Part shown: in pieces, positions 39,822 to 48,800 of the stretch
Numbering within the stretch: position 1 is the first letter of the stretch
Layout: the number at the start of each line of letters is the position of its first letter
Origin: Xiphophorus maculatus
Taxonomy: Eukaryota > Chordata > Actinopteri > Cyprinodontiformes > Poeciliidae
NCBI RefSeq assembly: GCF_002775205.1
Contig: NC_036446.1
Location: 838,272 to 902,271, forward strand
Length of the DNA: 64,000 nt
Direction: 5' to 3'
Translations under genes and position numbers: made by a program
Notes under the pieces: model-generated
The model's database searches: none
The model's input: the letters and a program-made list of their open reading frames with translations, nothing else
Told to the model about the DNA's origin: nothing

Positions 39822-42800
39822 TCAGGCGTTGAGCCGCAGAGACTGATCCTCCCTCCTCCTGGAGGAGATATCGATGTCGATGGAGTCTTTCCCCACGATC
39901 AGCCGCAGACGCTTCGCCGGAGGAAGTGGAATGAAGTCGTCCTCGAAGTCATTGTGGAAGTAGTCGTCTTCCTCCTCCTCCTCCTCCTCCTCCTCCTCTT
40001 CCTCCTCCTCATCATCATCATCGTCGTCGTCATCCTCGTCAGAGGAAGGGTCGGCCAGGACCTTCTGGGTGCGATGGACGCCGCCGGCCGCATCCCCGTT
40101 GGCCTGGAGCCGCCGGGCGTCGTCCTCCTTCCTCAGCTGGATCTTCAGCTTGGTGGCGTTGCCATGGACAACGGGCGCGAAGCCGTTGTTGAGCTTGGCG
40201 ATGTAGGAGCCGGCCTTGTCCTTGTCGTGCTCCTTGCTGAACTTGATGCTGATCTTGCTAGAGGAGGTGGGGCTGAGTGTGGAGGAGGCCACGGCGTCGG
40301 TGCCGTCAGCCGTCTTGCTGCTGCTGCTGTCCCTCCGCCGGCGGAGCGTCAGCTTGGGAATGCCGCCGCTGTTCTCCAGGATTAGCTGCGCGTCGTAGCG
40401 CGTGATGCGCCGCTTCTTCTTGGCCTTGTCTTGTGAGCGGCAGCCGCTCTTGCTCTTATCGCGGCGGAGGGATTTGCCGCCGTTGGCCACGCCGTTGTAG
40501 TCCCGGTGTCTGTCGGCGAAGCTCAGCAACACGTTCCCGCCATCACGCCCCGCAGCAAACGGCTCACAGTCGGAGCCTTCGCATTTGATGGTCCGCTCAG
40601 TCCGGAGCCGGGACGGCCGCTTCCGGCCCGAACACGAGCTCCTCCGGCCGTAGCCGCCTAGCACCGGCGGCTGCGACAGGCCGCCGCCGTGCTGCAGGTA
40701 CTCGTCCATGTCCGCCGGCTCCGTTTTGATGACCACGCCGCCCGGTACCGGACTGAGCCCGTCCATGGCGCCGGGCTCCAGCTTGGCGCCCGGTGTGGGC
40801 TCCGGGGCCTTCAGGGTCCGCATGGACCTGCGAGTCCTGTAGGCGGAGCCGCGGCCTCCGTCGGGAAGGCCACCGTTCTCCTTGGAGGCGTGTCGGGTCA
40901 GGCAGCCCCTCGGGCCAAGCGGTGCCACCTCCGGACCGTCCTTTTCCTTCTTCACGGTGACGATGCTCTTACACGGCAGCACCTTGGAGTCCCTGAGGCC
41001 CAGCGGGACGGCGTCTGCGCGGGCCGCCGCCACCCGCCTGCGGCTGCGCAGCCGCACCTTGCTGGGAGGCTTGGACTGGGAGCGAAGTCTCTTTGGTTCC
41101 CTGCTGCTGTTTCCTGGAGCCGGTTTGGAACATGAGGTAGAGACGGCTCGGGACACAGTCTGTCTGCTCGGGGTCCGGGTCCGGTACTTCAGGCCCGGCG
41201 ATGAAGACGATGAAGATGAAGTTCTGGTTCTGGCAGCTGCAGGGAAACAGAGACATAGGAAATAAAAGCTATATAAAAGATTATTTTTTATTTAGTTTTT
41301 ACATTATTTTAAGATATATTACTGTGCATTAGATAGAAATACATTTAAAATGTATATTAAAAATAACATTAAACAATCACTCAACTTTATTTATACCACT
41401 ATTGTTACAGTGAAGTACTTTATATAGTTTTATTACATAAAAAGAAATTAAAAAGTAAAACAAATATTAAAAATAAAGCTTAGAAAAGATTATATTTTCT
41501 ATGAAAATTTTTAAAATACGGTGAATTGCAAAAAAATATCAAATATAAAAATAATTTAATATCACAAAACGTATTACAATAAAGTTAAATTCTTAGGAAA
41601 TTCATAAAAACATTCAAACATATATTAAAATATCTTTCAAATACCACATGTAAAAGAAATAAAAACTAATAAAAATATAACAATACATGCATACAATTAA
41701 CTAATTAAAGATGCAAAAATTAAATTAAAATTATATATAAATATTTCATAAATATACAATGAAAACTAGGAAGCAGATAATACAAATATAAAAAATGTAC
41801 ATAAAATTACAAATATAAAATTTAACAATAAAGAAAAAATATGAAACATAATAAATGCTAAAGACAACAAAATCAACTAGAAAATTTCGGAAGAAATTTA
41901 GCCGGGGCCTGCCGAGGCGCGCCCGTCGGGCATGGGCCCGGCGTCGTCGCGCCACAAATCGGCGTCGACGCCAAAGAACGCCGCGACGTAAGCAGTGGCA
42001 CGCGGAGAACCGCAAGAACGTTAAGCGAGGCGGACGTGCACCGTTCGGTACGATTTAAAATGTTGTCAAGGCTTTTATTTTGGAAGTTTTGTTAAACTTC
42101 ATTTCAAAGGGCCAAACTAATACCACGTGTAACAGTGCTTTGGATGAAAAAGTCAAATAAAGCCAAAAAGAGCAATTACGTCATGTAAAATTATTCAAGG
42201 CTTTTATTTTGAAATTTTCAGAATGCTTCATTTCAAAGGGCCAAACTAATACCACGTGTAACAGTGCTTTGGATGAAAAAGTCAAATAAAGCCAAAAAGA
42301 GCAATTACCTGATGTAAAAATATTCAAGGCTTTTATTTTGAAATTATTATTATGCTCCATTTTAAAGTTCCAAACTAATCCCATGTGTAACAGTGCTTTG
42401 GATGAAAAAGTCATATAAAGCCAAAAACAGCAATTACCTGATGTAAAAATATTCAAGGCTTTTATTTTGAAATTATTATTATTCTCCATTTTAAAGTTCC
42501 AAAGTAATCCCATGTGTAACAGTGCTTTGGATGAAAACGTCAAATAAATCCAAAAACAGCAATTACCTGATGTAAAAATATTCAAGGCTTTTATTTTGAA
42601 ATTATTATTCTCCATTTTAAAGTTCCAAACTAATCCCATGTGTAACATTGCTTTGGATGAAAAAGTCATATACGGCCAAAAAGAGCAATTACGTCATGTA
42701 AAATATTCAAGGCTTTTATTTTGAAATTTTCGTTATGCTTAATTTTAAAGTTCCAAACTAATCCCATGTGTAACAGTTACTGAGTTAAATCAGTTATATA

Positions 42801-45800: not shown

Positions 45801-48800
45801 ACTAATACCACGTGTAACAGTGCTTTGGATGAAAAAGTCAAATAAAGCCAAAAAGAGCAATTACCTGATGTAAAAATATTCAAGGCTTTTATTTTGAAAT
45901 TATTATTATGCTCCATTTTAAAGTTCCAAACTAATCCCATGTGTAACAGTGCTTTGGATGAAAAAGTCATATAAAGCCAAAAACAGCAATTACCTGATGT
46001 AAAAATATTCAAGGCTTTTATTTTGAAATTTTCAGTATGCTTCATTTCAAAGTTCCAAAGTAATCCCATGTGTAACAGTGCTTTGGATGAAAACGTCAAA
46101 TAAAGCCAAAAACAGCAATTACCTGATGTAAAAATATTCAAGGCTTTTATTTTGAAATTATTATTATGCTCCATTTTAAAGTTCCGAACTAATCCCATGT
46201 GTAACATTGCTTTGGATGAAAAAGTCATATACGGCCAAAAAGAGCAATTACTTCATGTAAAATATTCAAGGCTTTTATTTTGAAATTTTCAGTATGCTTC
46301 ATTTTAAAGTTCTGAACTAATACCACGTGTAAGAGTGCTTTGGATGAAAAAGTCAAATAAAGCCAAAAAGAGCAATTACGTCATGTAAAAATATTCAAGG
46401 CTTTTATTTTGAAACTTTTGTTAAGCTTCATTTCAAAGGGCCAAACTAATACCACGTGTAACAGTGCTTTGGATGAAAAAGTCATACAAAGCCAAAAACA
46501 GCAATTGCATGATGTAAAAATATTCAAGGCTTTTATTTTGAAATTTTCAGTATGCTCCATTTTAAAGTTCCGAACGAATCCCATGTGTAACAGTGCTTTG
46601 GATAAAAAAGTCACATAAAGCCAAAAAGCGCAATTACCTGATGTAAAAATATGCAAGGCTTTTATTTTGAAATTATTATTATGCTCCATTTTAAAGTTCC
46701 GAACTAATCCCATGTGTAACAGTGCTTTGGATGAAAAAGTCACATAAAGCCAAAAAGCGCAATTACCTGATGTAAAAATATTCAAGGCTTTTATTTTGAA
46801 ATTATTATTATGCTCCATTTTAAAGTTCCGAACAAATCCCATGTGTAACAGTGCTTTGGATGAAAAAGTCATATACGGCCAAAAAGAGCAATTACATGAC
46901 GTAAAAATATTCAAGGCTTTTATTTTGAAATTTTCAGTATGCTTCATTTCAGAGGGCCAAACTATTCCATTGTGTAACAGTGCTTTGGATAAAAAAGTCA
47001 CATAAAGCCAAAAAGCGCAATTACCTGATGTAAAAATATTCAAGGCTTTTATTTTGAAATTATTATTATGCTCCATTTTAAAGTTCCGAACTAATCCCAT
47101 GTGTAACATTGCTTTGGATGAAAAAGTCATATACGGCCAATAAGAGCAATTACGTCATGTAAAATATTCAAGGCTTTTATTTTGAAATTATTATTATGCT
47201 CCATTTTAAAGTTCCAAACTAATCCCATGTGTAACATTGCTTTGGATGAAAAAGTCATATACGGCCAAAAAGAGCAATTACGTCATGTAAAATATTCAAG
47301 GCTTTTATTTTGAAATTTTCAGTATGCTTAATTTTAAAGTTCCAAACTAATCCCATGTGTAACAGTTACTGAGTTCAATCAGTTATATACAGCCCATAGC
47401 AGCAGGTAGTTCTAAAGGCCAGTTCTCAGTCCTGATCTGTTTCAACTGAGGATAGATAGAACTACAGCGATGCGTATCTGTAGTCCAAATCAGCAGCCAA
47501 TAGCCTCTTGAGTTCCGTTGCTATGGTAAATAATGGTCTCAGCAGGTGTGAGCTCTGAGCGCTGAGCTCTCAAACACACAAGTGTGTTTGAGCAAACACA
47601 TTTTACTGACAAAAAAGCATTGGAAACAAATCCTTCTTGTTCGGGAACCGTAATACATATTCGAAAAGCGTTTGCAGCGTATGACAGTTCAATGTGTCTT
47701 CTGCGATAGTCCCGAGATTCATATCTGTACCTCACTCAGAGCATTTACAGCGATGAGAGAAAGAAATGTTGTGCCCAGATCTTAAATTCTATTCAAATAC
47801 ATGGGAGAGAGCCTCAGACAGCCTCAGAAAATCCTGTCGCATGACTTTGCTCTGAAGCACCGTGACAGAAAACCGTACGGTCTAGATAAATTTCGAAAAC
47901 ATTTTACCGGAGCAGACAGGCGTATCAATGTCAGGACCGATTTTGATACTAATCGTGCGATATTTGTGGGCGTGATGGCGATTTCAAAAATGATTTGGGT
48001 TGAAAAAGTTGTCTTCATCTCTCACTCTAAGCAGCCAGAAACGCACTCTAACTTGAGCAAAAATGAGAAACTTTGGGTCGCTTAGAGGCAAATTGTGGAC
48101 AAACCGTAACTGGTATCGACGAGCCGTCTTCACTTTCGAAGAGATCACAGACGTATCTACAAAATGAAATTTGAATGGCATTTCTAGGTGAATTTGTGAC
48201 GACACAGCAAATCCTCAAAAATAGGGTATTTCTAGGATTTTTCCCATTGAGTTATAATGGGGTTTTTTTCGCAGTTTTTTGCGAATTATGTCGCCACGTT
48301 AAGCCCAAATCCCACCAAAAATAATAGCTCCAATGGCGTGAATTTTCTGCACGTTTTGATACCTCATTTGTAGGTGTGCACCCAGCGGTACGAGCCGCAT
48401 TAACGGTTACGGAAGAAAAATAAAGAATTATAATAATATTAAAGAGACGCTTGTTGGGTGTAGAGTAATAGGTTCCTGCCATTGCTTTGCATGGCAGGCC
48501 CCAATAAAGAAACACTTTCTCCGACAATAACAATAGGTTCCTGCCATTGCTTTGCATGGCAGGCCCCAATAAATCTAAGAACTGATGTAACTCCTCCCGT
48601 CTGCAGATTCCAATCAATATTGTGATATTATTGATCCGTGGTGAGTGGCGGCCTTACATTGATGTGTTTTTGGCATTTCCTGAGAGTCGACGTCGGTGTG
48701 GGATCCCACAGAGTGGCTGTCCGAGCTCCTGTTCCCTTCTCCGAGTTTCTTCAGCCGGTTGAGCCGCTTGTCCGTCTCCCGCAGCCCGTACTTGCTGTTG

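Follow-up and report, generated by a model that had tools for sequence, protein, structure and literature searches.

The 64,000 nucleotides (nt) of the Xiphophorus maculatus genome analysed here (assembly GCF_002775205.1, contig NC_036446.1, positions 838,272-902,271 of the forward strand; hereafter the window, to whose positions all feature coordinates refer) carry a 6.7-kb composite repeat in the last intron of kmt5b, and the question it raises is what kind of element consists of whole units with fixed edges and how such units come to be stacked. An earlier note, made from the letters of this DNA, had described the block as a CpG-rich block, a 129-bp array and a module repeated three times, and had taken its fixed edges as the mark of a defined element rather than of a drifting satellite. 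With a probability of roughly 0.85, the block consists of three stacked non-autonomous elements of the Helitron superfamily, and arrays of this family build up by serial insertion into the 5' ends of resident copies. The earlier observation is thereby partly confirmed: the three-unit block in kmt5b stands, the edge coordinates and the extent of a second stack, block 1, are corrected, and the element family, its true minus-strand orientation and the mode of array growth are added.

The repeated order and its place within the last intron are borne out by the unit coordinates and by two KMT5B exons on the minus strand to the right of the block, at 49018-49155 (E 5.5e-27) and 49287-49526 (E 9.3e-32), matched against SUV420H1/KMT5B chains. 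To the left lies a long open frame (39825-41291, minus) for which the Pfam search gave no match and which is assigned to kmt5b by position only. The right edge of the stack, block 2, lies about 88 bp from the splice donor predicted from the sequence. Its parts are as follows.

41877..48569, minus strand: whole stack of three elements in the last kmt5b intron, element sense the same as gene sense
41877..43591, minus strand: unit A, from its CTAG end to the end of its module, its own 5' hairpin displaced
43594..45299, minus strand: unit B, without a 5' hairpin
45305..48504, minus strand: unit C, with an intact 5' end (hairpin 48475-48502, terminal AA 48503-48504)
48505..48569, minus strand: displaced 5' end of an older unit, by letter comparison (hairpin 48540-48567, terminal AA 48568-48569)
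41877..41903, minus strand: element 3' end in unit A, a hairpin with a 7-bp stem and CTAG
41904..41914, minus strand: 3' subterminal inverted repeat of unit A, one mismatch to the 11-mer
42066..42777, minus strand: 129-bp satellite array of unit A, 5.6 copies
43786..44239, minus strand: 129-bp satellite array of unit B, 3.5 copies
45494..47366, minus strand: 129-bp satellite array of unit C, 14.6 copies

The CpG blocks thus start at 41877, 43594 and 45305, and the modules end at 43591, 45299 and 48425. The end hairpin is missing from units A and B, and two hairpin copies close the block, the second of which is read as displaced from an older unit. This outer hairpin fits the stump of unit A, one base off an intact end; the hairpin of unit B is missing from the block. 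The edges are indeed fixed, but the start that had been given, 41876, is the target A, the true left edge being 41877, and the end that had been placed at 48567 moves to 48569 because the AA that follows CCCC behaves like element sequence.

Read on the minus strand, a unit comprises a 5'-TT, an 11-bp subterminal repeat within a hairpin, (ATT)n, a module of 0.8-1.1 kb, the 129-bp satellite, the CpG block, the inverse subterminal repeat, a second hairpin and CTAG-3'. The start is TT-GGGGCCTGCCA, the 11-mer opening the 5' hairpin, so that the 5' end is TT-GGGG and not the 5'-TC of canonical Helitron1 elements. The subterminal inverted repeats GGGGCCTGCCA and TGGCAGGCCCC are 11 bp long and stand 2 nt from the 5' end, within the values for Helentrons and HINEs (at least 11 bp, 2-4 nt); in unit A of block 2 they differ by one mismatch. 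The 3' end, a hairpin with a 7-bp stem followed by TCTAG, is of the CTRR type of Helitrons. Its hairpin lies 5 nt from the end, compared with 10-12 nt in canonical Helitrons (PMC5148889; for this and all other citations, in the parts of the paper that were covered), and the 3' subterminal repeat 28-38 nt from it, the corresponding values for Helentrons and HINEs being about 8-35 bp and about 38-60 bp. When the four terminal stretches were folded as single strands, their folds were equalled by 1 to 8 of 200 shuffles. Taken together, this architecture identifies the unit, from its sequence, as a non-autonomous transposon of the Helitron superfamily. It is not filed as a Helentron because Helentrons insert at TT and this element mostly between A and T. 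One minus-strand frame is open through the 129-bp array, but units of 128 bp break it, and a coding role was set aside.

The ends recur throughout the assembly, which comprises 704 Mb in 101 contigs (C1 and so on) and from which the loci L001-L061 were sampled. A 25-base start pattern occurs 1426 times with at most two mismatches, well above chance, the reversed-pattern control giving none, and full head-to-tail junctions, CCCCAA followed by CTAG, were found by pattern 435 times, the controls again giving 0. The proposal of a defined element with fixed edges is therefore sustained: the sampled loci agree in their edges down to the base, and pattern matches show the same edges across the genome. 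Whole units up to 100% identical are present on different chromosomes. Unit A shares 99.8% identity over 1715 bp with a unit at L032 on contig C3; unit B is matched best by L049 on C8 (98.0% over 1517 bp); and unit C has its best-scoring match in L049 as well, and is 99.3% identical over 2033 bp to a unit of L047.

How the units are joined is the key to the arrays. Junctions are either full (CCCCAA|CTAG) or consist of a hairpin-less stump, and extra hairpins stand at the right edges. The hairpin-less junctions and the extra end hairpins are the two halves of split 5' ends, the stump being the left half and the remainder the right. In the sampled loci, 30 stumps and 33 remainders were collected. 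All 30 stumps end in A, as do all nine external left flanks among L001-L030. Right-hand contexts (n=22) begin AAT in 19 cases, AAA in two and AAC in one; true external right edges (L031, L040 and L058 excluded) have AAT in 17 of 19 and AAA in 2. When stumps and remainders were put together, an exact intact 5' region resulted in 3 of 16 same-locus combinations if AA was counted as element and in none with the boundary at the three remaining offsets; all 990 combinations taken together gave 93 exact ones with AA as element as against 1, 23 and 4 at offsets 0, 1 and 3. Insertion is therefore mostly between A and T. Split 5' ends show no target site duplication. The TT insertion of Helentrons and HINEs is not what is seen: the split ends show A/T, and 17 of 19 right and 9 of 9 left edges fit it. 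Under A/T insertion, the kmt5b intron without the stack would read ...AAAATCAA^TAAATCTAAG....

The halves of one split-site type could be followed across the assembly, where 112 exact left and 118 exact right halves occur (controls 0). On contigs C1-C18, for which the lists of left and right halves are complete and in which duplicated loci are included, a right half follows downstream within 40 kb on the same strand for 66 of 89 left halves, compared with 4 that have one upstream and 3 with one on the opposite strand. When the right halves were shifted 500 times, an average of 0.43 pairs resulted, with a maximum of 4 (at 60 kb). Distances between paired halves start at 2.05 kb, about one unit. 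In the L050 array, the right half predicted from the first unit was found at C6:22649508; the exact half of this type stands on 4 of the 19 external right edges read, which puts the chance of such a success at about one in five. That the sampled loci yielded nearly as many stumps as remainders (30 and 33) was set aside as proof because sampling had picked left edges and right edges separately. The pairing of split halves across inserted units thus points to array growth through serial insertion into resident 5' ends.

A different route would be a rolling-circle concatemer, in which the end signal is passed, a multimer is made and the whole is inserted in one event. The full junction, CCCCAA|CTAG, is exactly the product such a multimer would leave, and tandem Helitrons of bat and silkworm have been ascribed to bypass of the end signal (PMC4067079). 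Neighbours in a concatemer should be nearly identical, and they are not. L036, L037 and L044 were left out of the first neighbour tests as duplicates (L044 in truth continues the L043 array), and four modules with foreign sequence were dropped from the junction-wise test. Over 43 adjacent module pairs the mean identity is 0.9799, against 0.9797 between arrays, and the CpG blocks give the same answer (0.9498 adjacent, 0.9526 between arrays). Neighbours across full junctions (22 pairs) have a mean of 0.9804, against 0.9802 when shuffled, with none at or above 0.995; those across stump junctions (19 pairs) have a mean of 0.9796, against 0.9801, with one at or above 0.995. An apparent excess at full junctions (0.9804 against 0.9453 shuffled, P 0.017) arose because the four modules with foreign sequence had lowered the shuffled mean, and it was gone without them. 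Once L044 is included, identities of 0.995 or above are reached by 5 of 97 same-array pairs, three of these five stemming from a 9-kb duplication, and by 121 of 1919 pairs between arrays. Of the 60 complete units, with known-duplication matches set aside, two have their best match in the same array. Near-identical whole-unit pairs number 32 (64 directed rows): 23 join separate loci, 22 of these on different contigs, eight fall among L034, L036 and L037, which are one duplicated locus, and one lies within the L043/L044 array. Apart from two local duplications, neighbours thus show neither the near-identity expected of concatemers nor the local copying expected of a satellite, and the arrays are not drifting satellites and are poorly explained as concatemers. 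Nor would concatemers predict that stumps pair with displaced hairpins across the units inserted between them. Old multimers may have been levelled by gene conversion, a variant with which this route as a whole is still very unlikely.

Composites with several 5' ends, created by self-insertion and then moving as one piece, would explain many of the repeated end hairpins; they have been put forward for Helitrons of Fusarium (PMC5148889). Several right edges (L051-L056, loci picked for their likeness to block 2) share one pair of 5' ends, and two neighbour pairs recur in another array. Composites predict right halves without left halves; the exact totals are 118 and 112, and most left halves are paired downstream. 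As the main source of the arrays, composite movement is highly improbable, but it can act alongside serial insertion. Growth like that of a satellite, by unequal exchange or segmental duplication of an element inserted once, can point to the duplications of L043/L044 and of L034/L036/L037 and is scarcely credible as the general route, since neighbours are no more alike than random units and best matches fall in the same array for only 2 of 60 units.

Serial insertion, for its part, has to reckon with several observations that weigh against it. The 5' halves do not all find partners: for 23 of 89 left halves no partner lies within 40 kb, and a sampled intact end is matched exactly by no more than 22 of 30 stumps and 22 of 33 remainders. 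Four arrays were read from one flank to the other, and two of them (L033 and block 2) are one hairpin short of their starts; of 11 pairs made by automatic bracket pairing, 3 restored an intact end exactly and one more was off by an indel. Two external right flanks begin AAA instead of AAT. Empty sites were sought for L039 and L033, and their joined flanks matched only themselves in the assembly. Some arrays have been copied locally: L034, L036 and L037 are one locus duplicated together with its flanks, the L043/L044 array (C14:20501800-20521700) contains an internal duplication of about 9 kb in which three module pairs about 9 kb apart are 100% identical. The two neighbour pairs that recur in another array also weigh against it. 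The 3' end that the probable autonomous partner described below appears to share is judged by its constant distance and orientation. Missing hairpins and unpaired halves may stem from loss of hairpins between 65-bp repeats or from movement of composites, the latter an idea taken from the Fusarium work (PMC5148889).

In the proposed mechanism, the element's own 5' end offers A/T sites, both where the host A meets the terminal T and in the adjoining internal (AAT)n. Copies coming from other genomic locations would insert there in the same orientation and so renew the site, and repeated insertion would yield arrays of whole units with fixed edges. A tentative extension, which falls somewhat short of an even chance, is that the 5' end is a landing pad actively preferred by the element's own transposase, so that the family grows largely on itself, in one orientation, and spares host genes. 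Full junctions number 435 against 1426 starts on a target of about 0.01% of the genome (a rough estimate, 1426 ends of about 50 bp). If the landing pad is real, tandem Helitron arrays would be insertion records, readable as nested brackets, rather than concatemers, and active targeting would be a means of low-harm transposon spread and of converting insertions into satellite-rich arrays.

The earlier note had seen no transposase, reverse transcriptase or integrase in the block; no transposase was found there, and a probable partner is located elsewhere in the genome. Profile PF14214 has 24 matches in the assembly and PF05970 has 26; 14 of the 24 PF14214 matches form one score group, and at 11 loci of this group Rep and a PIF1 helicase share one frame of 2251-2341 amino acids (aa). 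At five of five loci among those listed, a CTAG end of the family lies 3.87-4.05 kb downstream of the PIF1 match (3956 bp on C2; 3956, 4051 and 3874 bp on C4; 3967 bp on C92, locus L061). The next family end listed on the other side is 17.2 kb away on C2 and 17.5 kb on C4, an upper bound for the length of the partner. Judging from these arrangements, a larger Helitron with Rep and PIF1 helicase probably moves the non-autonomous unit, presumably by rolling-circle chemistry. The OTU domain, looked for as a pointer to the partner's type, has 17 matches in the assembly, none at the partner loci and seven at loci of a second Rep family. This second family, for example at C11:2428961-2434447, has frames of up to 2885 aa with the OTU domain upstream. 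A further Rep match, at C15:4758936-4759535, lies in a reported open frame of 17,154 aa.

The window holds a second stack of the same family, block 1, with these features.

1..11692, minus strand: block 1, running off the left end of the window
1124, 4007, 5980 and 9060, minus strand: CpG blocks of block 1, with hairpins ending at 9058, 11625 and 11690
9029..9075, minus strand: full head-to-tail junction (hairpin, CCCCAA, CTAG)

Block 1 has the same parts, and the right edge given for it holds, CCCC ending at 11690, but its supposed start near 2.9 kb is the end of a foreign stretch. The head-to-tail junction at 9058/9061 is real. Positions 1-1118 belong to the tail of a different unit, which includes a foreign segment; next come one more CpG block (1124-1296) and then foreign sequence up to about 2900. 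Block 1 therefore extends past the left end of the window. Within the foreign stretch 1297-2900, which may have been inserted or captured, lies a hAT dimerisation domain (Dimer_Tnp_hAT, E 5.8e-05; 2358-2582, minus). Window positions 1-930 repeat a 1.4-kb foreign segment within a unit of L049 (4815-6212), and the same part of the module differs in three sampled modules besides that of the window (four of 65 in all); this may represent an amplified subfamily. One unit of L034 (2201-5367, reverse strand) has its CpG block and its array separated by some 930 bp of unrelated sequence. Elsewhere, the window contains a 1.5-kb array with a 14/28-bp unit (16250-17757), a large inverted repeat (22575-23100) with 175-nt arms that are 96% complementary and 10 nt apart, plus outer 137-nt arms at 99%, and a reverse transcriptase fragment in one frame with an ALKBH8_N-type match (36495-37292, minus). 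Two SNORA65 snoRNA genes lie at 61009-61134 and 61972-62097 (minus). A retrozyme reading with a hammerhead ribozyme was dropped, as Rfam at its gathering threshold gave in the window the two SNORA65 copies only.

The kind of element is already known, and array building by serial insertion has previously been suggested from few cases. An open-literature search of titles and abstract openings had no study of such fish Helitron arrays among the matches listed. Tandem Helitrons have been cited as a sign of rolling-circle copying (PMC5876387, PMC4067079), and it is here that the genome-wide sample matters, since unrelated neighbours and paired split ends separate such copying from serial insertion. 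Asymmetric inverted repeats characterise the ends of HINE and Helitron2 elements (PMC4067079, PMC5148889), and cores of satellite DNA or tandem repeats have been described for elements of this kind (PMC7492417, PMC4067079). The non-autonomous Helentrons HINE/DINE-1 share with the fish element subterminal inverted repeats that measure 11 bp or more and lie about 2 nt inside the 5' end, tandem repeats in the centre, a microsatellite near the 5' end, a 3' hairpin and the lack of coding capacity, but their target is TT rather than A/T, and in the fish element the 3' subterminal repeat and hairpin lie nearer to the 3' end (PMC4067079). The oyster Cg_HINE likewise combines a satellite-array core with a microsatellite, subterminal repeats and a 3' palindrome in a non-autonomous element, but a TT target is suggested for it and stacks of whole elements are unmentioned in the parts covered (PMC7492417). 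The proto-Helentron of Phytophthora infestans likewise begins 5'-TT, ends CTAG-3' and inserts between A and T; it is described as Helitron-like in structure, whereas the fish element has asymmetric subterminal repeats, the comparison being one of ends (PMC4067079). The Helitron2-like FoHeli of Fusarium has asymmetric inverted repeats and hairpins at both ends, and self-insertion and multiple 5' ends have been suggested for it, one element lying 2 bp from the 5' end of another; it differs in its terminal letters and in offering few cases, compared with hundreds of stacked copies with paired split ends here (PMC5148889). In maize and bat, head-to-tail Helitrons are joined without an extra base, as in the full junctions described above, and for one maize pair insertion at an A/T formed by the host A and the element's T has been offered; the bat cases are taken as tandem copies, whereas in the fish the degree of likeness among neighbours weighs against copying in place (PMC2267711).

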